From positions 1 through 64,000 of the forward strand of contig NZ_QGKL01000039.1 in NCBI RefSeq assembly GCF_003172895.1: a stretch of DNA of 64,000 nucleotides, given 5' to 3'. The position numbers and the translations under genes were made by a program. Shown here piece after piece: positions 1,833 through 21,212 of the stretch. The DNA comes from Leucothrix arctica (GTDB taxonomy: Bacteria; Pseudomonadota; Gammaproteobacteria; Thiotrichales; Thiotrichaceae). Under the pieces are notes generated by a model, which saw only the letters and a program-made list of their open reading frames with translations, was not told where the DNA came from and did no database searches. Position 1 is the stretch's first letter. Every line of letters starts with the position of its first letter.

Positions 1833-3364
1833 ATTCGTCGCCGTCATTGGTCGATATGTCTGGTATTGAAAAGCGTTTTCCGGGCGTACACGCGCTTAAA
1901 AACGTCTCTTTCAATCTGCGGGCTGGCGAAGTTCATGCTCTGATGGGGGAGAACGGTGCAGGAAAGTCGACGCTGATGAAAATCCTTTCAGGGGTATACC
2001 TGCGTGACTCTGGTGTCGTGCGTTTGGATGGTAAGGAAGTTACTTTTGCAGAGCCGAAAAAAGCACAAGATGCAGGTGTTGGCATTATTCATCAAGAGCT
2101 GAGTCTGATGAATGACTTAACGGCGGCACAGAATATTTTTATTGGCCGTGAGCCTCGCTTCGGCTTTGGGCGTTTAGATGAAAAAGCTCTAAACCGTCAA
2201 GCGAGTGAGATTTTCGCATCGATGAATCTGGATCTTGATCCACGGGTATGTGTGGGTGAGTTAAGTATTGCGCGCCAACAGATGGTTGAAATCGCCAAGG
2301 CATTATCCTATCGCTCTCGTGTATTAATCATGGACGAGCCTACGGCTGCCTTGAACGATACTGAGATTGATGAGTTGTTTGTAATCATTCGACGCTTGCA
2401 AAAAGAGAACGTAGGGATCATCTACATCAGTCATAAAATGGATGAGCTGAAACGCATATCTGATCGTGTCACGATTATGCGTGATGGTGAAAATGTTGAC
2501 ACGGTGGATGCGAAGGCAACACCTGTGAGTGACATCATTGCAATGATGGTTGGGCGAGCCTTGATCGATAGTGATGTAGAAATACCAGATACCTCTGAAG
2601 GGACGCCTGCACTTGAAGTTCGTGGTTTGACTCGTGGAAGAGAGATTGTCGATGTTGGTTTTACGGTACAAAAAGGCGAGATTTTAGGATTCGCTGGGCT
2701 AATGGGCGCTGGCCGAACTGAGGTTGCTAGGGCGATTTTTGGTGCTGATCCGCGAGATGCGGGTGAGGTTTTGGTACACGGTAAAAGCGTTGATATCCAA
2801 AGTCCAGCAGATGCGGTGGCATCGGGTATCGGTTACTTATCTGAGGATCGAAAGCACTTCGGTCTGGCCATCGGTATGGATATCCGAGCCAATGTTGCTA
2901 TGGCTTCATTAGAAAACTATACCTCTAAAATGGGCAAGTTGGATGAGGCTGCTATCGGCTTAGTGACGCGAGAATATATCGATAAATTGGATATACGCAC
3001 ACCATCTGATCAGCAAGAAGTACGGCTGTTGTCTGGTGGTAATCAACAGAAAGTAGTTATCGCTAAGTGGTTATTACGTGATTGCGAAATCTTGATTTTT
3101 GACGAGCCTACTCGGGGTATAGATATCGGAGCTAAGGCTGAAATATACAAACTTTTAAACCGTTTGGCAGCACAGGGACGGGCAATCATTGTTATTTCCT
3201 CTGAGTTGCCAGAAATATTACGGGTTTCGCACCGGATAGCGGTGATGTCTGAAGGCAGACTCACGGGAATACTACCCGGCGGTGCTAACACGACTCAGGA
3301 AGCAATTATGCATCTGGCAACTAAGCGCGAAACCGTTAGTGAATCTTTGGGAGCAACTGCATGA
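1829..3364 (+). CDS. Sugar ABC transporter ATP-binding protein (RbsA/MglA type, two NBDs)
   Basis: A 511-residue cytoplasmic ATPase with two nucleotide-binding domains, the normal size for CUT2 sugar importers. The first domain has Walker [10 protein letters not shown] at about residue 40, signature [15 protein letters not shown] and Walker [11 protein letters not shown]. The second has the degenerate loop GLMGAGRTE typical of RbsA C-terminal halves, then [15 protein letters not shown] and [12 protein letters not shown]. The start ATG overlaps the preceding stop, and the stop overlaps the permease start at 3361, so these three genes form one tightly coupled block. It energises import by the permease and binding protein that follow. 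The substrate cannot be read from the ATPase. Confidence 0.95.
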
Positions 3365-5486: not shown

Positions 5487-7128
<1,642 letters not shown>

Positions 7129-7171: not shown

Positions 7172-8695
7172 ATGAGCACAGAGCAAACATCCGTCCAATT
7201 GCATGAAAATGACAATGTTAGAGTGGCTATTGCTACCTTAATTAAAGGTATTTCTAGTTCTGTTGAGACGCCAGTCTCTACAATCCCCTTGGGACATAAG
7301 TTTGCTAGTGCTGAAATTAAGACTGATGAGCCTATCATTAAGTACAACCAAATTATTGGATTTGCTTCTGAGCATATTGCCAAAGGTGATCACGTTCATA
7401 CACATAATTGTCAGTTTCGAGGAGACTTTGAGCGCGACTCCGCGTCAGGTTCTAAGTCTACGCCTACACAATTTTTTGCAGCAGATCAACGCGCTACGTT
7501 TATGGGGTTTAAACGTGCTAACGGTAAGGTCGGGACACGCAACTATTTGGCGGTAATGACGACGGTGAATTGTTCAGCGACTGTTGCGAAAATGGTGGCT
7601 AAGCACTTTGAAGATGATGCCCTTGATGACTACCCCAATATTGATGGTGTGGTCGCTTTTGCTCATTCAACAGGGTGTGGCATGGGGATGGAGGGGGATG
7701 GCTACGATAACTTCCAGCGTATTCTACATGGTTATGCGACCCATCCTAATTTTGCGGGTGTTTTGATGATTGGTTTGGGCTGCGAGACGGCTCAGATTAG
7801 TGACTTGAAGAAGAATTATAGTCTTGCGGATGATGCAGGGTTTCAATCTATGACTATTCAGGGTGTCGGCGGCACGCGTAAAGCGGTTGCCGAGGGGATT
7901 AAGCGATTAGAGCAGATGCTGCCCGCAGCCAATGCTTGCATACGGGAAAAGGTTTCGGCTGAGCATTTAACGTTGGCGCTTCAATGTGGTGGCTCAGATG
8001 GCTACTCAGGCATCACAGCGAATCCAGCGTTAGGTGCTGCAGCTGATTTATTGGTGAGGCATGGTGGAACAGCGATATTGGCTGAAACACCTGAAATTTA
8101 TGGGGCGGAGCACTTACTCACGGAGCGAGCGAATACACAGGAAGTCGCTGATAAATTAATGGAGCGGATTCGTTGGTGGGAGCACTACACGCGAATTAAT
8201 AATGGCTCGATTGATAATAATCCATCACCCGGTAATAAGGCGGGTGGGCTAACAACTATTCTGGAAAAGTCTCTTGGTGCTGTTGCAAAAGGCGGAACAA
8301 CTGACCTGATGCAAGTGTTGAAATATGCAGAGCCAGTGACAGAGAAGGGGTTTGTTTTTATGGATAGCCCAGGTTATGACCCCGTGTCAGTGACGGGTGA
8401 GGTGGCTTCAGGCGCAACAGTGGTTTGTTTTACAACGGGACGAGGTTCAGTGTTTGGATACAAGCCTTCGCCGAGTATTAAATTAGCGACCAACTCTCAG
8501 CTTTACGAGCACATGTCTGAGGATATGGATATTAATTGTGGTGAGGTGTTGAGTGCAGGTGTGTCGATTGATGAAATGGGTGAGCGGATTTTTCAATTGA
8601 TTCTTAAGGTCGCGTCAGGTCAGCCTTCTAAGAGTGAGGCGCTTGGCTTTGGAGATAATGAGTTCAATCCTTGGATGATCGGAACGGTGATGTAG
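7172..8695 (+). CDS. UxaA-family (altronate/galactarate-type) dehydratase
   Basis: A 507-residue sugar-acid dehydratase. Residues 1-85 form the SAF domain (VQLHENDNVRVAIATL, IPLGHKFASAEI, GDHVHTHN). From about residue 110 comes the large catalytic domain (FMGFKRANGKVGTRNYLAVM, CGGSDGYSGITANPALG, ending FNPWMIGTVM). The family removes water from an aldonate to give a 2-keto-3-deoxy acid. Here it would feed the 2-keto-3-deoxy acid to the SDR at 1080 and the FAH hydrolase at 5487. A fuconate-type pathway more often uses an enolase-superfamily dehydratase, so the use of a UxaA-type enzyme is notable. Last gene of the operon, 43 bp after the SDR. Confidence 0.88.
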   Translation: MSTEQTSVQLHENDNVRVAIATLIKGISSSVETPVSTIPLGHKFASAEIKTDEPIIKYNQIIGFASEHIAKGDHVHTHNCQFRGDFERDSASGSKSTPTQFFAADQRATFMGFKRANGKVGTRNYLAVMTTVNCSATVAKMVAKHFEDDALDDYPNIDGVVAFAHSTGCGMGMEGDGYDNFQRILHGYATHPNFAGVLMIGLGCETAQISDLKKNYSLADDAGFQSMTIQGVGGTRKAVAEGIKRLEQMLPAANACIREKVSAEHLTLALQCGGSDGYSGITANPALGAAADLLVRHGGTAILAETPEIYGAEHLLTERANTQEVADKLMERIRWWEHYTRINNGSIDNNPSPGNKAGGLTTILEKSLGAVAKGGTTDLMQVLKYAEPVTEKGFVFMDSPGYDPVSVTGEVASGATVVCFTTGRGSVFGYKPSPSIKLATNSQLYEHMSEDMDINCGEVLSAGVSIDEMGERIFQLILKVASGQPSKSEALGFGDNEFNPWMIGTVM

Positions 8696-8874: not shown

Positions 8875-9735
8875 GTGTCAGCAGTACCTTTAGAAACAAT
8901 AGAGCCATCCTCAGGTTGGAAAGCCAAGCTTGAGTTGGGCTATGTTGCACGTGAAACACGCACTGTCTTAGCGCACCGCAGTCGTCGTGGGCCATTAGCT
9001 GTCCAACGTGCTTTCTACCCTGAAGGTGCGGTTTGTCATTCCTATATCTTGCACCCGCCCGGTGGTGTTGTTGGTGGCGACGAATTACTTATCAATGTAT
9101 CTGTCGATAAAGATGCTCAAGCACTGCTAACTACTCCAGGCGCAACAAAATTCTATCGTTCATTAGGCGACAAAGCCCATCAAGTTCAGCGTTTTACAAT
9201 TGCTGAAAACGCCTGTTTGGAGTGGCTACCACAAGAAACAATTTTCTTCCCCGGTGCAAATGCAGGGCTTAGCACGCAGATTCAGCTACACGCTCTGTCT
9301 CGCTACATCGGCTGGGAAGTACATTGTTTAGGTCGTCCAACCAATAACGAACGATTCGAGTCTGGCCAAGTGTTGTTCTCAACGGACATCACACGAGATG
9401 ACAAGCCGCTATACAAAGAGCGCTTATTTATCAATGGCCTTGGTGACTTAGACGCGTTAGCAGGCTTAAACGGCTATCCCGTTACTGCAACCCTAATCGC
9501 ACTGCCTGCAACCGACGAAGTTTTACAGCTAGTTCGACAACACTGCCAAAACTTTACTGAGCAACATAAAGCCGACGGCTTTGCAGGCGCTACCTTATTA
9601 AATGATGTGTTAGTGGTCCGTTACTTAGGTAACAGTACCGAGCTAGCACATCGACTATTTAGAAATATTTGGCTGAGTATTCGGCCGTTTGTGAATGGCC
9701 TTGACGCTGTTTCACCTCGAATTTGGTCCACCTAG
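8875..9735 (+). CDS. ureD: Urease accessory protein UreD
   Basis: A 286-residue nickel-insertion chaperone that docks on the urease apoenzyme and recruits UreF and UreG. Family motifs are [51 protein letters not shown] and [14 protein letters not shown]. It starts with GTG at 8875 after an AAGGATAG ribosome site. First gene of the urease operon, following a 179-bp gap from the sugar operon that should hold the urease promoter. No clear regulator binding site could be recognised there. Confidence 0.95.
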
Positions 9736-10388: not shown

Positions 10389-12096
10389 TTCTATGAACAA
10401 GATAGATCGACGCGCTTATGCAGAAATGTACGGCCCAACTACCGGTGACCGCGTGCGCTTAGGCGACACAGAGCTGTTCATCGAAGTTGAAAAAGACTAC
10501 ACAACTTACGGCGACGAAGTGAAGTTCGGTGGCGGTAAAGTTATTCGTGACGGCATGGGGCAGAGTCAACGCCCGGATGCTGAGGTTGCGGATTTGGTCA
10601 TTACCAATGCCTTGATCCTAGATCATTGGGGTGTGGTGAAAGCGGATATCGGCATCAAGCACGGTCGTATTGTTGCGATTGGTAAAGCGGGAAACCCTGA
10701 TATACAAGACGATGTGAATATCATCGTTGGACCAGGAACTGAGGCGATTGCAGGTGAAGGTTCGATCATTACCGCGGGTGGTGTGGATTCTCATATTCAC
10801 TTTATTTGCCCGCAACAGGTAGACGAAGCGCTGAGTTCAGGTGTCACCACTATGTTAGGTGGTGGAACAGGCCCTGCGACAGGAACCAACGCAACCACCT
10901 GCACACCCGGTATTTGGAATATGCACCGCATGTTGCAAGCCGCTGACTCGTTACCAATGAACATCGGTTTCTTGGGTAAGGGTAACGCGAGTTTGCCGCA
11001 AGGTTTGAACGAGCAGGTTGAAGCGGGCGCAATGGGTTTGAAGCTTCATGAAGACTGGGGAACAACGCCAGCTTCGATTGATAACTGCCTAACGGTTGCC
11101 GACAACTACGATATTCAGGTAGCGATTCATACTGATACGCTGAATGAGTCGGGTTTTGTTGAAGACACGATGGCGGCGTTTAAAGGCCGTACTATCCACA
11201 CTTACCACACGGAAGGTGCAGGTGGTGGACATGCGCCAGACATTATTCGTGCCTGTGGTGAAGATAATGTGTTGCCGTCCTCAACCAATCCAACACGTCC
11301 ATATACGGTAAACACGGTTGATGAGCATTTGGATATGTTGATGGTTTGCCATCACCTTGACCCAAGTATTGCCGAAGATGTGGCGTTTGCTGAGTCTCGT
11401 ATTCGTCGTGAAACCATTGCCGCGGAAGACATCCTGCATGACTTAGGTGCATTCTCAATGATTGCCTCTGACTCGCAAGCAATGGGCCGTGTCGGTGAAG
11501 TGATTACTCGCACATGGCAAACCGCGCACAAAATGAAAGTGCAGCGTGGCAGTTTGGAAGGTGATCCATCCACACATGATAATGCGCGTGCGAAGCGCTA
11601 TATCGCGAAGTACACTATTAACCCTGCGATTACTCACGGTATCTCACATGAAGTAGGTTCGGTGGAAGTCGGTAAATTAGCTGATTTGGTGATGTGGAAA
11701 CCTGCATTCTTTGCAACCAAACCAAGCCTAATTATTAAAGGTGGAATGATTGCGTCGGCACCGATGGGTGATCCGAATGCATCTATTCCAACGCCTCAGC
11801 CAGTTCACTACCGTCCAATGTTTGGTGCGTTAGGTGCTGCGATGCATGCGACGCGTATGACCTTTATGTCGCAGGCGTCTATTGATAAAAAAGTACCTGA
11901 GATGTTGGATTTGAAAAGTATGATCGGTGCGGTCAAAGGCTGCCGAAACATCAAAAAAGCTGACATGATTTTGAATGATTATCAGCCGACGATTGAAGTT
12001 GATTCACAGACCTATGAAGTGAAAGCGGATGGTGTGCTGTTAACTTGTGAGCCTGCCGAGATTTTGCCGCTTGCACAACGCTACTTCTTGTTCTGA
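10381..12096 (+). CDS. ureC: Urease alpha (catalytic) subunit
   Basis: A 571-residue dinickel amidohydrolase of standard length. Nickel ligands and catalytic residues are all visible: His138 and His140 in SHIH, carbamylated Lys221 in GLKLHEDWG, His250 in VAIH, His276 in [10 protein letters not shown], Asp364 in [10 protein letters not shown], and the mobile flap Cys323-His324 in MVCHHLD. The enzyme therefore looks fully active. The start overlaps ureB and the stop overlaps the ureE ATG by one base. Confidence 0.98.
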
Positions 12097-13308: not shown

Positions 13309-13929
13309 ATGGCAGACAGTAAGTTCCTTCGTGTCGGTGTTGGTGGTCCAGTTGGATCAGGTAAAACAGCACTGTTGACGCAGTTATGTAAAGAGATGAA
13401 AGACCACTATGAAATGGCGGTCGTGACAAACGATATCTATACCCGTGAAGACGCCGAGTTCCTATTGCGTAATAAGGCCATGGATGCTGACCGTATTGTA
13501 GGTGTAGAGACGGGTGGTTGCCCGCACACAGCCATTCGTGAAGATGCGTCGATCAACCTTGCAGCGGTTGAAGGCTTGCAGGTGAAATTCCCAATGCTGG
13601 ACTTTGTTATCATAGAGAGTGGTGGTGATAACTTGAGTGCAACGTTTAGCCCTGAGTTATCAGACCTCACTATTTATGTGATTGACGTCGCGGCGGGCGA
13701 TAAGATCCCTCGTAAGGGTGGCCCAGGCATTACTAAGTCAGACTTGTTGGTAATTAATAAGACGGATCTTGCACCAATGGTTGGCGCGTCACTTGAAGTG
13801 ATGGATACCGATACTAAGCGCATGCGTGGTGATAAGCCTTATGTGTTTACGAACTTGAAAACAGGTGATGGTGTACAGACGATTATTGATTTCATCATTC
13901 ATAAAGGAATGTTGGACGCGAAAGTTTAG
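13309..13929 (+). CDS. ureG: Urease accessory GTPase UreG
   Basis: A 206-residue SIMIBI-class GTPase that delivers nickel to urease. P-loop GPVGSGKT at residues 13-20, metal-binding CPH in [32 protein letters not shown] and the G4-like VINKTDLA. Good AGAGAAG ribosome site. It is the last gene of ureDABCEFG. No nickel permease, hydrogenase-type transporter or urea channel is adjacent. No strong terminator directly follows; the first intrinsic terminator downstream is that of the first small-RNA-like unit. Confidence 0.97.
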
Positions 13930-13991
13930 TTATAGCCGTCTGGTTTGTAGCTTAGTTACAAAAACTAAACTCAGCGTTGATATATTATAGA

Positions 13992-14020
13992 TTGATTGAA
14001 GTGGGTAAGATCATTAGTAT
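13992..14020 (+). promoter_or_regulatory. Promoter of sRNA-like unit 1
   Basis: -35 TTGATT (13992-13997), 17-bp spacer, -10 TAGTAT (14015-14020), then 7 bp to the conserved GTAAG. The box AAAAACTAAAC at 13960-13970 lies 21 bp upstream of the -35, at the same distance as in units 2 and 4. Confidence 0.7.
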
Positions 14021-14027
14021 TAAAAGC

Positions 14028-14107
14028 GTAAGATGATTTCCTCCTCCTCAATCAATTTGAGGTAGTTGACTTAAGCCACTTTGTCTTCTACCTCACTTTG
14101 GTTTTTT
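14028..14107 (+). ncRNA. Putative small RNA, unit 1 of five
   Basis: An 80-nt unit from the conserved GTAAG to the end of the T-run. The CU-rich tract TTTCCTCCTCCTCA at 14037-14050 is complementary to Shine-Dalgarno sequences. Hairpin 1 pairs CCTCAA with TTGAGG (14046-14062). Hairpin 2 pairs GAGGTAG (14059-14065) with CTACCTC (14088-14094), with an inner GAC/GTC pair, and is followed by CACTTTGG and six T, an intrinsic terminator. The two hairpins share GAGG and exclude each other. No protein similarity is seen. A 10-codon ORF (ATG at 14033) runs through the unit, so a translated leader remains possible. Confidence 0.7.
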
Positions 14108-14430
14108 AATCTCTTCCAGTAAGTCCGCTCAATACCTCAATACCTCAATACATTTCCTGACATACAAATATCTAAGTTTTAGCTCGTCCATAAGCAAAAC
14201 TTTAATACTTCCTATACGCTTCATTTTTATGACTGATGACATGCGCATTTTTAGCAACGTGATACAAAGAGGCTAATTTGAAGTCATGCATGAATCAATT
14301 TTAAATATGTTACGGACAGGTGCTGGCTTACAAGAGTAGCAATACAAGGTGTCTAAGATATTTAGAAAGGGTGATTGAAATATGTGTGTTGGATGTGATT
14401 GCAGCTTTTCAACAATAACGGTTTGAAATA
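14108..14430. other. Spacer between sRNA units 1 and 2
   Basis: About 320 bp with no reading frame of coding character on either strand. It contains a short AATACCTC tandem repeat (about 14130-14155) and otherwise AT-rich unique sequence. It is similar in length to the spacer between units 3 and 4, but the sequence is largely diverged. Confidence 0.6.
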
Positions 14431-14463
14431 TAAAAACTAAACACAGAGATAAAATATTATTGT

Positions 14464-14492
14464 TTGAAGGTCGTGATGAGTATCACTAATAT
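14464..14492 (+). promoter_or_regulatory. Promoter of sRNA-like unit 2
   Basis: -35 TTGAAG (14464-14469), 17-bp spacer, -10 TAATAT (14487-14492), 7 bp to GTAAG. AAAAACTAAAC at 14432-14442 is again 21 bp upstream of the -35. Confidence 0.72.
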
Positions 14493-14499
14493 GAAAGGT

Positions 14500-14579
14500 G
14501 TAAGATGATTTTCTCTTCCTCAGTCCAATTGAGGTAGATGACTAAGGCCACTTTGCCCTCTACCTCGCTTCGGTTTTCT
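14500..14579 (+). ncRNA. Putative small RNA, unit 2 of five (most diverged)
   Basis: Same 80-bp architecture as unit 1 but the most diverged copy. The CU tract is TTTTCTCTTCCTCA, weakening the anti-SD run. Hairpin 1 (CCTCAG/TTGAGG) is kept through a G-T pair although the loop changed. The terminator stem is GAGGTAGA (14531-14538) with TCTACCTC (14559-14566), 8 bp, plus an inner GGC/GCC. The tail is TTTTCT rather than six T, so termination may be leakier. The 70 bp after the unit are near-identical to those after unit 4 (TTTCCCCTCCCAAGG onward), showing segmental duplication. Confidence 0.65.
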
Positions 14580-14738
14580 GATTTCCCCTCCCAAGGAATT
14601 CTGCGCACAATCTTATACTTTTATAGTACCAAGACAAGTTTTTTTTCTGTATCTCCCTCATCGTATAGCCTATCTCAACTGCTGTTTATTGCTGCACCCT
14701 TGTTATATATAGCTCTAGCTATATGTTAGTACGAATAA

Positions 14739-14813
14739 GGGTTAGAATATATAAACTGAGTGGTTAAGTTAAGTCAATTGATTAAGGGCGGCTGAATAGC
14801 TAATATCTAACCC
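14739..14813 (+). promoter_or_regulatory. Promoter of sRNA-like unit 3 with flanking inverted repeat
   Basis: -35 TTGATT (14778-14783), 17-bp spacer, -10 TAATAT (14801-14806), 7 bp to GTAAG. The promoter is bracketed by GGGTTAG (14739-14745) and its reverse complement CTAACCC (14807-14813), separated by 61 bp. Unit 5 has the same arrangement with the same 61-bp spacing; units 1, 2 and 4 lack it. Confidence 0.7.
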
Positions 14814-14893
14814 GTAAGATGATTTCCTCCTCCTCAATCAATTTGAGGTAGTCGACTTAAGCCACTTTGTCTTCTACCTCACTTTGGTTTTTT
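14814..14893 (+). ncRNA. Putative small RNA, unit 3 of five
   Basis: 80 bp, differing from unit 1 by a single base (GTAGTC instead of GTAGTT in the terminator loop side). It has the same CU-rich tract, the same two alternative hairpins and a six-T tail at 14888-14893. Near-identity with unit 1, while their upstream regions differ, implies that the transcribed 80 bp are under selection or gene conversion. Confidence 0.72.
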
Positions 14894-15216
14894 AATTCCC
14901 CTCCCAAGAATACTCTAGCAAAACTTAGACTGTCTCAGTCATATATAAGTATCCGCTTTTCTCTCAAGTTTAGATCTCGTACCACTCAGCCCATCTAGTT
15001 TATACATCGCATTTTGTAGTTAGACTTCAGTCTAAAGCTATCCACGCATAGTATTGTCTATTTTTTATAAGGGTGACAAGACTAGATAGTCTTGGATAGT
15101 GAAAGTAGTTAAACGAGATAGTATGAGGAGTTTAGTGCAGAAGAGATGTAGAAAAGCGTTATAAATAAGATGGGTCTATAGGTAAGAGTTTCTCAACGAA
15201 TTTGTGTTGCGATTAT
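14894..15216. other. Spacer between sRNA units 3 and 4, with two short palindromes
   Basis: No coding signal. Two compact inverted repeats stand out: TTAGACT-TC-AGTCTAA at 15020-15035 and CAAGACTA-GA-TAGTCTTG at 15077-15094. Neither is followed by a T-run, so they look more like operators or stem elements than terminators. Their role is unknown. Confidence 0.5.
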
Positions 15217-15248
15217 AAAAACTAAACACAGTGTTGATATATTGTCGT

Positions 15249-15277
15249 TTGATGAACGTGATGAATACCACTAATAT
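15249..15277 (+). promoter_or_regulatory. Promoter of sRNA-like unit 4
   Basis: -35 TTGATG (15249-15254), 17-bp spacer, -10 TAATAT (15272-15277), 7 bp to GTAAG. AAAAACTAAAC at 15217-15227 lies 21 bp upstream of the -35, as in units 1 and 2. Confidence 0.72.
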
Positions 15278-15284
15278 AGAAGGC

Positions 15285-15364
15285 GTAAGATGATTTCCTC
15301 CTCCTCAATCAAATTGAGGTAGATAGCTTAAGCCACTTTGCCATCTACCTCACTTTGGTTTTTT
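15285..15364 (+). ncRNA. Putative small RNA, unit 4 of five
   Basis: 80-bp unit with an intact CU-rich tract. Hairpin 1 is CCTCAA/TTGAGG with a changed loop (TCAAA). The terminator stem is extended to 9 bp, GAGGTAGAT with ATCTACCTC. The two bases added on each side are complementary, a paired change compared with units 1 and 3. Six T at 15359-15364. The downstream flank matches that of unit 2. Confidence 0.72.
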
Positions 15365-15525
15365 GATTTCCCCTCCCAAGGAATTCTGCGCACAATCTTA
15401 TACTTTTCCAGTATCAAGACAAGCTGTTTCTTTTTCTCTCGCTCTCTCCTGTACATATACTCAAATCTTAATCTGGCGTTCAGCCTTGTAATTACTGCCT
15501 TAGGCATTATTGGTTTAGTTTTTTA

Positions 15526-15600
15526 GGGTTAGAATTAATAAACTGAAAGGTGAGATTAAGTCAATTGATGAGAGGTGTATGAATCGTTAATATCTAACCC
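15526..15600 (+). promoter_or_regulatory. Promoter of sRNA-like unit 5 with flanking inverted repeat
   Basis: -35 TTGATG (15565-15570), 17-bp spacer, -10 TAATAT (15588-15593), 7 bp to GTAAG. GGGTTAG (15526-15532) and CTAACCC (15594-15600) flank it with 61 bp between, exactly as at unit 3. Confidence 0.72.
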
Positions 15601-15680
15601 GTAAGATGATTTCCTCCTCCTCAACCAAATTGAGGTAGCTGACTTAAGCCACTTTGTCTCCTACCTCACTTTGGTTTTTT
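15601..15680 (+). ncRNA. Putative small RNA, unit 5 of five
   Basis: 80-bp unit with an intact CU-rich tract. Hairpin 1 has loop CCAAA, and terminator GAGGTAG/CTACCTC has an inner GAC/GTC pair and six T (15675-15680). It is the last copy; 222 bp then separate it from sthA on the same strand. It could in principle act as a leader for sthA, but its own strong terminator and the identical orphan copies upstream argue for a free RNA. Confidence 0.72.
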
Positions 15681-15902: not shown

Positions 15903-17372
15903 ATGACAAGCAAAACAAAGCCAAACAGCAAGCAAGCGAACGAAAAAATTACTTTCAATGTTGATCAAAAGCATAAATATGACTTGATCGTTATTGGTAG
16001 TGGCCCTGGAGGACGTCGAGCGGCAATTCAGGGTGCTGAGTTAGGTAAACGTGTGTTGGTTATTGAAAAAGGTCAAAAGGTTGGAGGCGTGTCAGTGCAT
16101 ACTGGAACAATTCCTAGTAAAACGATGCGTGAGACAGTGCTTAATTTGTCAGGGATGCGCGAGCGTGAGTTTTACGGACATAGTTATCGTGTAAAAGAAG
16201 ATATTTCTGCTGCCGACATTTTTGAGCGATTAAATAAAACGCTTCATCACGAAGTCGAAATTCAAGAAATGCAGCTCAATCGTAATCGCATAGAGACTAT
16301 TTATGGCTTAGCGAGTTTCGCTGATGCTCATCATATAAATATTCATACTGAATTGGGTGATGGTCCTTGTGTTCGTGGTGAAATCATTGTGATCGCGGTA
16401 GGGACTAAACCATACAGACCCGATTACGTTCCATTCAACGGTGAAACAGTTGTAGATAGCGATGAACTGTTGAGTATGAAAAAAATCCCAAGTTCACTGG
16501 CTGTTGTTGGAGCGGGTGTTATTGGTCTTGAGTATGCGACTATTTTTAGTGCGCTAGATGTGGCGGTTACTTTGATCGATCCACGGACTAAGATTTTGGA
16601 CTTTGTGGATCGCGAGGTCATGCAATACACGGTAAACCAATTGCGTGATAGTGGTGTAACTTTCCGTCTAGGTCATAAAGTAGAGAAGATAGAGAAGGAT
16701 CCTGTGAGTGGCCGTCACTTGTGCTACTTAAATAGCGGTCGAATGGTTACTGCTGAAGTGGTGTTGTTTGCGGCTGGTCGAGTTGGAACTACCGATCGCT
16801 TAGGTTTAGAAAACTGTGGTTTGGACGTCGATGACCGTGGTCGCATAAAAGTTAATGAGAATTTTCAAACAGCGATCGAAAACATTTATGCAGTTGGTGA
16901 TGTTATTGGTTTCCCAAGTCTTGCCTCTACCTCGATGGAACAAGGTCGCGTAGCGGTTTGCCGAGCTTACAACCAACCGATGAATGACATGTCACAATTT
17001 TTCCCATACGGGATTTATTCTGTGCCAGAGATTTCAATGGTAGGAATGACGGAAGAAGACGTTCAGAAACGTAATATTCCTTATGAGGTCGGTGTTGCCC
17101 GTTTCCGTGAGACAGCTCGTGGGCAAATCATGGGACTAAGAACAGGTTTAATGAAGTGTATTTACTCTATAAAGACTCAGCGTTTGCTAGGTGTGCATAT
17201 AGTAGGTGAAGGTGCGACTGAGCTAGTTCACATTGGACAGTCAGTAATGGCGCACAAAGGGAAGCTAAGCTTCTTTATTGATAATACCTTTAACTATCCA
17301 ACACTTGCAGAAGCATACAAAATTGCAGCGTTGGATGCTGCAAGTCGTATGCCGCCCGGTTCTGAAGGCTAA
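15903..17372 (+). CDS. sthA: Soluble pyridine nucleotide transhydrogenase
   Basis: A 489-residue flavoprotein of the pyridine nucleotide-disulfide oxidoreductase family that balances NADPH and NADH. The FAD-binding motif VIGSGPGGRRAA is at about residue 31. The NAD(P) site is VVGAGVIGLEYATIFSAL and the second FAD motif is NIYAVGDVIGFPSLASTSMEQGR. The redox-disulfide position reads GGVSVHTGTIPSKTMRETVLN with no cysteine pair, separating SthA from lipoamide dehydrogenase. The N-terminus is about 25 residues longer and hydrophilic. The stop overlaps the stop of the convergent moeB (CTAA). Confidence 0.9.
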   Translation: MTSKTKPNSKQANEKITFNVDQKHKYDLIVIGSGPGGRRAAIQGAELGKRVLVIEKGQKVGGVSVHTGTIPSKTMRETVLNLSGMREREFYGHSYRVKEDISAADIFERLNKTLHHEVEIQEMQLNRNRIETIYGLASFADAHHINIHTELGDGPCVRGEIIVIAVGTKPYRPDYVPFNGETVVDSDELLSMKKIPSSLAVVGAGVIGLEYATIFSALDVAVTLIDPRTKILDFVDREVMQYTVNQLRDSGVTFRLGHKVEKIEKDPVSGRHLCYLNSGRMVTAEVVLFAAGRVGTTDRLGLENCGLDVDDRGRIKVNENFQTAIENIYAVGDVIGFPSLASTSMEQGRVAVCRAYNQPMNDMSQFFPYGIYSVPEISMVGMTEEDVQKRNIPYEVGVARFRETARGQIMGLRTGLMKCIYSIKTQRLLGVHIVGEGATELVHIGQSVMAHKGKLSFFIDNTFNYPTLAEAYKIAALDAASRMPPGSEG

Positions 17373-19202: not shown

Positions 19203-20075
19203 ATGAAATTAACAACACTAGCAATCGCTATTGCAGCGGCTTCACTTTCTTTTTCAGCACAGGCTGCTGATATCAAGTTTGGTGGTGATTTTCACGTCGG
19301 TTACAAAAGTAGTTTCGGTGACAACAACGGTAAGCACCTTCAGGACGAAGGCTCTGAGCTGTGGATGAATATTAGTGAGAAAGCTGGTGGTCTTACGTAT
19401 TTCGCTCACGTTGAGTTAGAGTTTGACGGTGGTATCTACGGCGATGACGGCGATAACAACGATGGCGATGAGAGCGACGATATTGAAATTGATGAACTTC
19501 AAGTTGGAGTTCAAGGAAAATTCGGTAAAGTTATCTTTGGTGATATCGAAAATGCTTGTGATAAGCTAGAAGTAGGTGGTGACTGGAATGAGTTCTACGC
19601 TGCGAGTGATAGCCGAGGCGATTGTGGTGGTGATCACGAAGGTACAATTCTTTACACTAAAAAAATTGGTAAGGCAGAGGTAGGTATTTCTCATAACACA
19701 GATACTGATGAGAATTCTGCTGCTGTACGTTACAAAGCTAACAAGAACTTAAGTGTTGCTCTTGGTTATATCCAAAGAAAAGGCGACTTAGATAATATCG
19801 TTTCTGCATCAATTACTGCACAGAAAGGTAAGTTTGGCCTTAAAGCTCGTGTAAATGATAACGAGACTAGCTCAAATGGTGATACTGGATACAGCGTTTT
19901 TGCTGCTTACAGTCTTACTAAAGTTGACCTAATCAACATCGGTACTGACAACGACGATAGAGTTTCTTTGGGTTACAACCGTAAGCTTTCTAAGAACTCT
20001 AAGTTGTTCATCGAAGGCGTTAAGCAAGGTAGTGGAGATATTGAGCATGCTGTAGGTGTTCAATACAAGTTCTAA
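19203..20075 (+). CDS. Gram-negative porin (Porin_4-type)
   Basis: A 290-residue outer-membrane beta-barrel. Signal peptide MKLTTLAIAIAAASLSFSAQA is cleaved near residue 21. The mature start ADIKFGGDFHVGYKSSFGD, alternating beta-strand pattern and C-terminal Phe (YKF) are typical of general porins recognised by the Bam machinery. Loop 3 region is acidic (GDDGDNNDGDESDD). Its neighbour at 20367 is a paralogue with the same fold, arranged head to tail with an intervening terminator. Confidence 0.88.
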   Translation: MKLTTLAIAIAAASLSFSAQAADIKFGGDFHVGYKSSFGDNNGKHLQDEGSELWMNISEKAGGLTYFAHVELEFDGGIYGDDGDNNDGDESDDIEIDELQVGVQGKFGKVIFGDIENACDKLEVGGDWNEFYAASDSRGDCGGDHEGTILYTKKIGKAEVGISHNTDTDENSAAVRYKANKNLSVALGYIQRKGDLDNIVSASITAQKGKFGLKARVNDNETSSNGDTGYSVFAAYSLTKVDLINIGTDNDDRVSLGYNRKLSKNSKLFIEGVKQGSGDIEHAVGVQYKF

Positions 20076-20133: not shown

Positions 20134-20366
20134 GCCCTAATTTTAGTGTTATTTGTATGAAGTAATTAGTGGTAAAAACCTCGAATTAACGGTGGTTTGT
20201 GGTGTTTTTGTCTTTCATTTTAGAGCGTGCGCTGTTGTTTTTTGATATAAATGTTGTTGCTTTTTCCCAACAGGTATAATAATGTTCTCCCAAGACGTAA
20301 GTTTTACGAGGTATGTACGTCATATTTCGAATAAATATAAAGTATGTAAATCTAAAGGGAATAGAA

Positions 20367-21212
20367 ATGAAATTAAGCATAATCGCAATCGCAATCGCAG
20401 CAGCTTCAATGACTGGTGCAGCACAAGCTGAACTTAAAGTTAGCGGTGACGTTACAGTAAGTTACCAAGAAGATGGTACTGGTGGTTCGTCTTCTTTTGA
20501 TGGTGCTGGTACTGAAGTAATCTTTGATGCTTCTCAAAAAGTAGGTAACTTAACAGTTTTTGGTTCTGCTACTGCTAACATCGGTGGAACTGGTTCTACT
20601 GTAACAGCTGATGATGTATTTCTTGGTCTAAAGGGTGCTTTTGGTACTGTTAAGATCGGTGATACAGACAACGGTTGTGATACTGTAGACACTGGTTGGG
20701 TTGCAGATGATGTATTCATCTCTCACGATTCAGGCGGATGTGCAGGTTCAGATACAAGCAACGTTACTTACTCAAACACTCGTGGCGCTATGACTTACGC
20801 TGCTTCTGTAAGCCCAGAAGACTCTGCTGACAACTTTGCTGTTGGTATCAAAGGTAAGATGGGTCCTGTTACGGCTAGTTTTGGTTATGAGAATGGCGAC
20901 TTAGATGGTGATGCAACTACTTCTGATGTAGATAATGTTGTATTGGGTCTATCTGGAAACTACGGCCCGGTTGCTGTAGGTGTTCGCATGAATCAAATGG
21001 ATGGCGGCGATACAGACTTCGGTTATACTGCTCAATATGCTGCAGGCGCTAACAAGTTCTATGCTGGTTTCGGTGATGTGACTGATCAGGATTCTAAGTA
21101 CCTAGGTTACAACCGTTCAATTGGCAAAAATACTATTGCTGTAATTGAGTGGACGGACAAAGATAAGCTTGTTGATAATCAAGTAGCTGTTGGTCTTAAG
21201 CACAGCTTCTAA
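20367..21212 (+). CDS. Gram-negative porin, paralogue of the preceding porin
   Basis: A 281-residue porin. The ATG at 20367 is preferred over an in-frame start 54 bp upstream because it follows AAAGGGA and begins a clean signal peptide (MKLSIIAIAIAAASMTGAAQA). The mature protein starts ELKVSGDVTVSYQEDG, shows alternating beta strands, a single predicted disulfide-range Cys pair (NGCDT and GGCAG) and ends with Phe (KHSF). It shares the N-terminal and C-terminal pattern of the porin at 19203, including the LGYNR motif, and probably arose by duplication. Own promoter in the 290-bp gap. Confidence 0.88.
   Translation: MKLSIIAIAIAAASMTGAAQAELKVSGDVTVSYQEDGTGGSSSFDGAGTEVIFDASQKVGNLTVFGSATANIGGTGSTVTADDVFLGLKGAFGTVKIGDTDNGCDTVDTGWVADDVFISHDSGGCAGSDTSNVTYSNTRGAMTYAASVSPEDSADNFAVGIKGKMGPVTASFGYENGDLDGDATTSDVDNVVLGLSGNYGPVAVGVRMNQMDGGDTDFGYTAQYAAGANKFYAGFGDVTDQDSKYLGYNRSIGKNTIAVIEWTDKDKLVDNQVAVGLKHSF

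Follow-up and report, generated by a model that had tools for sequence, protein, structure and literature searches.

The 64,000-nt stretch of Leucothrix arctica DNA analysed here (the window) carries five near-identical units between ureG and an sthA-like gene. Are these functional small RNA (sRNA) genes, and if so, what might they regulate and what might switch them on? A preliminary description of the array gave their coordinates, all correctly, and a length of 80 nt, counted from the first base of GTAAG through the T-run, which holds for 5/5 units (Table 1). The units (u1 to u5) form a gap-free alignment of 81 columns with a mean identity of 94%. Pairwise identity was 91-100% in the 5′ 22 nt, 78-98% in the hairpin and 46-78% in the promoters; it was near chance in the far upstream flanks (80-200 bp, 16-35%) and fell back to 21-40% downstream, save for u2/u4 (79%). 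The likeness of the five units is not due to chance. Unit spacings alternate (472/314/471/316), and together with the long u2/u4 match this indicates that the array consists of u1 followed by two blocks, u2-u3 and u4-u5, arisen by duplication of ~786 bp. The tract TTTCCTCCTCCTC is exact in u1, u3, u4 and u5 and weakened to TTTTCTCTTCCTC in u2, as first reported; the two C-to-T changes in the u2 seed still allow G-U pairing. Given its fold z-score of -0.66, along with the broken U-tract and the seed changes, u2 is possibly a weaker or decaying copy.

Table 1. Features of the sRNA array and of related loci. Promoter elements and RNA parts are predictions; sequences other than the window are given by locus handle.
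Feature	Sequence	Position	Strand	Remarks
ureG, urease accessory GTPase	window	13309..13929	+	ORF; left neighbour, sets synteny, outside sRNAs
u1 promoter	window	13954..14020	+	box 13954-13970 (-74 to -58); -35 TTGATT 13992-13997; -10 TAGTAT 14015-14020
sRNA unit 1 (u1)	window	14028..14107	+	R1 111.2 bits; fold -21.5 kcal/mol, z -3.9
u1 parts	window	14028-14049		single-stranded 5′ anti-Shine-Dalgarno seed; then terminator hairpin and U-tract
u2 promoter	window	14426..14492	+	box 14426-14442; -35 TTGAAG 14464-14469; -10 TAATAT 14487-14492
sRNA unit 2 (u2)	window	14500..14579	+	R1 97.9 bits; fold z -0.66; weakened seed TTTTCTCTTCCTC; interrupted U-tract
u3 promoter	window	14740..14806	+	box 14740-14756; -35 TTGATT 14778-14783; -10 TAATAT 14801-14806
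sRNA unit 3 (u3)	window	14814..14893	+	R1 109.8 bits; fold z -3.85
u4 promoter	window	15211..15277	+	box 15211-15227; -35 TTGATG 15249-15254; -10 TAATAT 15272-15277
sRNA unit 4 (u4)	window	15285..15364	+	R1 108.2 bits; fold z -5.1
u5 promoter	window	15527..15593	+	box 15527-15543; -35 TTGATG 15565-15570; -10 TAATAT 15588-15593
sRNA unit 5 (u5)	window	15601..15680	+	R1 110.8 bits; fold z -5.5
sthA-like soluble pyridine nucleotide transhydrogenase	window	15903..17372	+	ORF; right neighbour, outside sRNAs
-35 palindrome promoter	L076	7907		
-35 palindrome promoter	L076	12397		
-35 palindrome promoter	L077	9138	-	
-35 palindrome promoter	L064	153	-	
-35 palindrome promoter	L061	7472	-	
-35 palindrome promoter	L079	8992		
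CTTCCTCATCTCCTCATGATTCGG block	L075	~11112-11135		
CTTCCTCATCTCCTCATGATTCGG block	L069	~7281-7306		
CTTCCTCATCTCCTCATGATTCGG block	L071	~2848-2871	-	
CTTCCTCATCTCCTCATGATTCGG block	L074	~9402-9430	-	
TATTAAGTGnACATTCAT block	L074	~9712-9735	-	
TATTAAGTGnACATTCAT block	L075	~10690-10715		
TATTAAGTGnACATTCAT block	L069	~6860-6885		
TATTAAGTGnACATTCAT block	L071	~3085-3107	-	

Two other features of the window were recorded. Two similar porin-like genes lie side by side (19203-20075 and 20313-21212), and the Rfam model 5_ureB_sRNA (RF02514) matched with 101.8 bits at 10545-10826 (- strand), antisense within the large urease subunit gene. Since that model spans urease coding sequence, the match may simply reflect conserved protein-coding DNA.

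To estimate the distribution of the family, we used a covariance model built from the five window copies (R1), together with DNA and 21-mer searches. Copies were found in 7/7 sampled Leucothrix genomes and in 0/56 other genomes of the family, which also make up the whole order sample here; the reversed-pattern control was zero. The 368 other class genomes contained no copies, the class-wide sample of 369 yielding the window's own alone. When 84,980 named species genomes were scanned for an exact 21-mer, 11 records were returned, all Leucothrix-type: Leucothrix pacifica JCM 18388, uncultured Leucothrix bins, and single bins labelled Thiotrichaceae and Proteobacteria, both of which match genomes of the genus sampled here. 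Within these samples, the sRNA family is restricted to the genus Leucothrix. A phage origin was rejected, as the two matches in an 18-mer scan of viral contigs (14.7 and 10.2 bits) are not copies. An Rfam scan, suggested in the preliminary description, gave nothing credible at the copies at gathering or permissive thresholds, and a literature search found no sRNA publications on the genus. As far as these searches show, neither the family nor the placing of its seed at the 5′ end nor the GcvA-paralogue link (see below) has been described.

The seven Leucothrix genomes hold ~20 further copies, full or decaying, at other loci, and the window's genome has a sixth, divergent copy on another contig (C39). 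At the ureG-sthA locus there are five copies in the window, two in G001 (L076) and one in L. pacifica (L063), and G003 (L079) has one copy adjoining sthA. The order ureG-sRNA-sthA is shared with L. pacifica and G001, and the orthologous locus was recognised in G001, G002 and G003. A TlpA/ResA-like thioredoxin gene adjoins the sRNA there in L063 (5631-6146), L076 (7285-7800) and L079 (8370-8885) and is missing from that position in the window. The first account of a five-copy array was right about the array and missed the genus-wide spread over several unrelated loci, the upstream promoter box and the linkage to the GcvA paralogue. The copies are not leaders or attenuators, because several face convergent genes (L077, L080, L075) or lack a downstream gene.

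The RNA begins with a near-invariant 22-nt 5′ end, GTAAGATGATTTCCTCCTCCTC, and contains the stretch GTAAGATGATTTCC. In single-sequence folds, these first ~22 nt were unpaired in nearly all copies, and the remainder formed a single long terminator hairpin with trailing U's that ends at about nt 80. Mean identity between copies was 97% in the 5′ 22 nt vs. 62% in the hairpin; the anti-Shine-Dalgarno seed is both accessible in these folds and more conserved than the rest of the RNA, which supports the original proposal that the units are paralogous sRNA genes whose anti-Shine-Dalgarno tract is exposed. Two-sided changes were seen in 14/18 pairs, vs. 1-4 in slid controls, and 0/500 shuffles matched this; 92% of pair cells remain paired despite the divergence of the stems. 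The alignment was fitted to the covariance model and so leans towards the structure, but the single-sequence folds agree with it. A predicted intrinsic terminator, a long hairpin with a U-tract, had been claimed for each unit and was found in each. Its loop of ~12 nt is longer than a simple terminator scan allows, so that such a scan misses all five units. With the exception of G003-G004 and one G005 copy, most copies have a loop motif, AAGCCACTTTG, in full or in part, which may be a second contact site. Subfamily B, which is shorter or shifted (e.g., GTTCATGATTCCTCCTCCTCGACCATGGGG...) and drops one T, sits at the GcvA-paralogue locus in G000, G001, G002 and G005.

Could such units be dispersed non-functional repeats of the REP or MITE type, in which a hairpin and a conserved end coincide by chance? 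They are multicopy, intergenic and hairpin-bearing, and decaying copies do exist (G2f, and one in G000 that was lost at the GcvA-paralogue locus). However, the conserved unit runs exactly from promoter to terminator, its stems vary by compensatory pairs, its promoter box is conserved in register, and orthologous positions are kept at both the sthA and the GcvA-paralogue loci, all of which makes this reading very unlikely. The covariance search, put forward originally as a check for an unconserved, decaying local duplication, gave the opposite picture, with strong compensatory covariation among copies in every Leucothrix genome sampled. We consider it hardly credible that the units encode a translated leader or small peptide (ATGATTTCCTCCTCC..., read as MISSSS...), and this was rejected because the frame is not conserved. 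Most copies do have an ATG after GTAAG, and u1 to u5 contain a short frame. But G3a has ATA, frame and length vary among copies, the one-T loss in subfamily B shifts the frame, every seed base is conserved including third positions, and an ATG five bases from the 5′ end leaves no space for a ribosome-binding site.

The separate promoters with 17-bp spacers described earlier for each unit were borne out at the level of prediction, with -35 and -10 hexamers at equal offsets in 5/5. These match the sigma-70 consensus at only ~8/12 positions; a simple promoter scan therefore misses all five, and the promoters look activator-dependent. When 22 copies were aligned on GTAAG, the consensus showed an upstream box, GTTTA (-74 to -70), N7 and TAAAC (-62 to -58), centred near -66, then T-50, A-48, T-45 and TC at -40/-39, and a core of TTGATG (-36 to -31), 17 bp, TAnTAT (-13 to -8) and a C-rich discriminator. 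The box is imperfect in the window's own copies. Its inverted repeat holds T-N11-A centred near -66, which we take to be the usual LysR-type recognition position. A position weight matrix of -76 to -31 was run over 2.44 Mb (two genomes), and its nine best matches were all sRNA promoters (24-47 bits); since the matrix had been built with these nine, the result matters for the absence of other strong sites and not for the scores themselves. The tenth match (17.1 bits) lies beside the G001 sRNA cluster, and G2d, G3a and G1f scored poorly through register shift or decay. The bare GTTTA-N7-TAAAC pattern was rejected as a genome-wide regulon marker, being too frequent and near its reversed-pattern control; none of five extra G000 sites examined leads to an sRNA. 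Over the -35 of copies in other species we also observed a palindrome like TTGwTGCnnnGCArCAA (Table 1). The five window copies are without it, which suggests that a second regulator site was lost or changed in the window's species.

Several paralogous sRNA genes, each with a predicted promoter and intrinsic terminator, are present, as in multicopy anti-Shine-Dalgarno sRNAs, and the family most probably represses translation with Hfq; an Hfq gene is present in 7/7 Leucothrix genomes. The CU tract had been said to be complementary to ribosome-binding sites, and the seed indeed contains the exact complement of AGGAGGAAATCAT (Shine-Dalgarno, spacer and the AT of ATG). The RNA would start at the G of GTAAG or an adjacent base and expose the unpaired 22-nt seed GUAAGAUGAUUUCCUCCUCCUC, antisense to AGGAGG-AAAUC-AU(G), i.e., a strong Shine-Dalgarno sequence, spacer and start codon. 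With such complementarity, it would shield the ribosome-binding sites of target mRNAs. The hairpin and U-tract of the variable 3′ half would end the RNA and serve as an Hfq platform, while many copies with separate promoters would provide dosage and separate tuning, the common seed giving common targets. We consider it likely that these are Leucothrix-specific sibling trans-acting sRNAs of ~80 nt that block ribosome binding in this way, the array being a local expansion.

Predicted targets were scanned in part of each genome, with gene starts chosen by a simple rule, and the controls kept the CU core and had the first nine bases shuffled. In G001, 52 start regions fell below -16 kcal/mol vs. 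33 ± 8 in controls (1/40 controls as high), and five orthologue pairs had both sites below -15 kcal/mol vs. 1.6 ± 1.1 expected (1/60 controls). G000 alone showed no excess of predicted sites over the shuffled-head controls. Conserved predicted pairs, as judged by reading the sequences by eye, include a cation-efflux protein, an ActP-like acetate permease, a FadD-like ligase and an acetyl/propionyl-CoA synthetase; no functional class stands out clearly in Pfam tallies. Transporters made up ~17/60 predicted targets vs. ~10/60 matched controls when sequences were read, but we do not claim enrichment because the Pfam tallies fail to separate the two sets clearly. Evidence for specific targets is only weak, and this, together with pyrimidine-rich repeats in many copies, would also suit a decoy that, instead of pairing with specific mRNAs, titrates something else, such as an RNA-binding protein (e.g., a CsrA-type regulator) or the ribosome/anti-SD machinery. 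The CsrA version was rejected, the RNAs being without the repeated GGA loops of CsrB/RsmZ RNAs. A decoy of either sort is improbable, as constraint reaches past the CU tract to GTAAGATGA, further than a simple decoy would require, and the conserved-target signal of the extended seed exceeds that of shuffled heads.

Returning to the sibling sRNAs and their control, transcription would probably be switched on by a LysR-type activator at the box near -66, for which the most likely candidate is a Leucothrix-specific GcvA paralogue. In G000, G001, G002 and G005, a LysR-family gene is divergent from an adjoining sRNA cluster. The gene passed the NCBIfam GcvA cutoff in 2/2 copies tested and is 85-89% identical among the four genomes; family genomes elsewhere with a match have proteins ≤49% identical to it. 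Leucothrix carries a second, ordinary GcvA besides. Two blocks were also observed at this locus in the four genomes: CTTCCTCATCTCCTCATGATTCGG just downstream of the sRNA cluster (degenerate in G000), possibly part of another RNA, and TATTAAGTGnACATTCAT upstream of the subfamily B copies, which may mark a longer transcript.

It is quite possible, if somewhat short of an even chance, that the sRNAs are real but answer to another regulator (ordinary GcvA or another factor), the linked paralogue serving other genes. G003 (97% complete) has two sRNA copies and no GcvA paralogue, which makes strict dependence on the paralogue doubtful, and the second palindrome over the -35 in other species would also fit this reading. 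Against it, the paralogue is divergently linked to an sRNA cluster in 4/4 genomes having it (the window's array is not so placed), and the box is LysR-type in position and T-N11-A in form. Control by the paralogue is what this arrangement suggests to us. We propose only tentatively that the duplicated GcvA has become a dedicated switch, acting chiefly on the promoters of the multi-locus sibling sRNAs, which would act as a broad, dose-tunable translational brake; with similar reserve, this might parallel gcvA-gcvB, but with an unrelated RNA.

The kind of system is already known, and the family is new. GcvB is encoded at a single locus and is a longer RNA with a G/U-rich seed. In enterics such as E. 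coli, gcvB is divergent from gcvA, is activated by GcvA (LysR) and represses periplasmic-binding-protein mRNAs (PMC1557403). One Leucothrix sRNA cluster is likewise divergent from a gcvA-type gene in four genomes, but the linked gene is the Leucothrix-only paralogue and its activating role would be by analogy; Rfam GcvB (RF00022) had no match in the window or at the GcvA-paralogue loci. Listeria LhrC1-5 are five near-identical sRNA copies of 111-114 nt with separate promoters and an upstream regulator element at about -55 to -75; they depend on LisR and carry three UCCC-type CU-rich sites in loops and linker that pair at the Shine-Dalgarno sequences of targets (PMC4132741). The Leucothrix copies share the near-identity, own promoters, common upstream box and CU-rich anti-Shine-Dalgarno site, but differ in length (~80 nt), in having one CCUCCUCCUC seed at the 5′ end and a LysR-type box, and in their gammaproteobacterial host, and there is no sequence likeness. 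The alphaproteobacterial cuckoo/alpha-r14 (NfeR1)/CcsR RNAs are clustered siblings with an ultraconserved anti-SD motif and freely diverging stems; CCUCCUCCC lies in unpaired hairpin regions, three per alpha-r14 RNA, and RNase E releases the CcsR RNAs from a single precursor shared with a DUF1127 gene (PMC10746234, PMC10253847). Clustering and an ultraconserved motif beside diverging stems recur in Leucothrix, and the earlier view that this likeness is one of concept, not of sequence, stands: the Leucothrix motif is CCUCCUCCUC, not CCUCCUCCC, and is located at the unpaired 5′ end instead of in hairpin regions. Moreover, each unit has its own predicted promoter and terminator, the array adjoins ureG and sthA and no DUF1127 gene, and the family is found only in Leucothrix (Gammaproteobacteria). 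Neisseria sibling sRNAs also pair with ribosome-binding regions; they differ in sequence, copy number and regulation.

For Leucothrix, this adds a well-delimited sRNA family that is absent from Rfam. The same solution, an ultraconserved anti-Shine-Dalgarno tract with freely varying stems in many copies, is now found in a gammaproteobacterium. If the link to the GcvA paralogue is true, this would be a clear case of a new sRNA family and a duplicated transcription factor having arisen together within one genus, and the beginnings of sRNA regulons could be studied in it directly.
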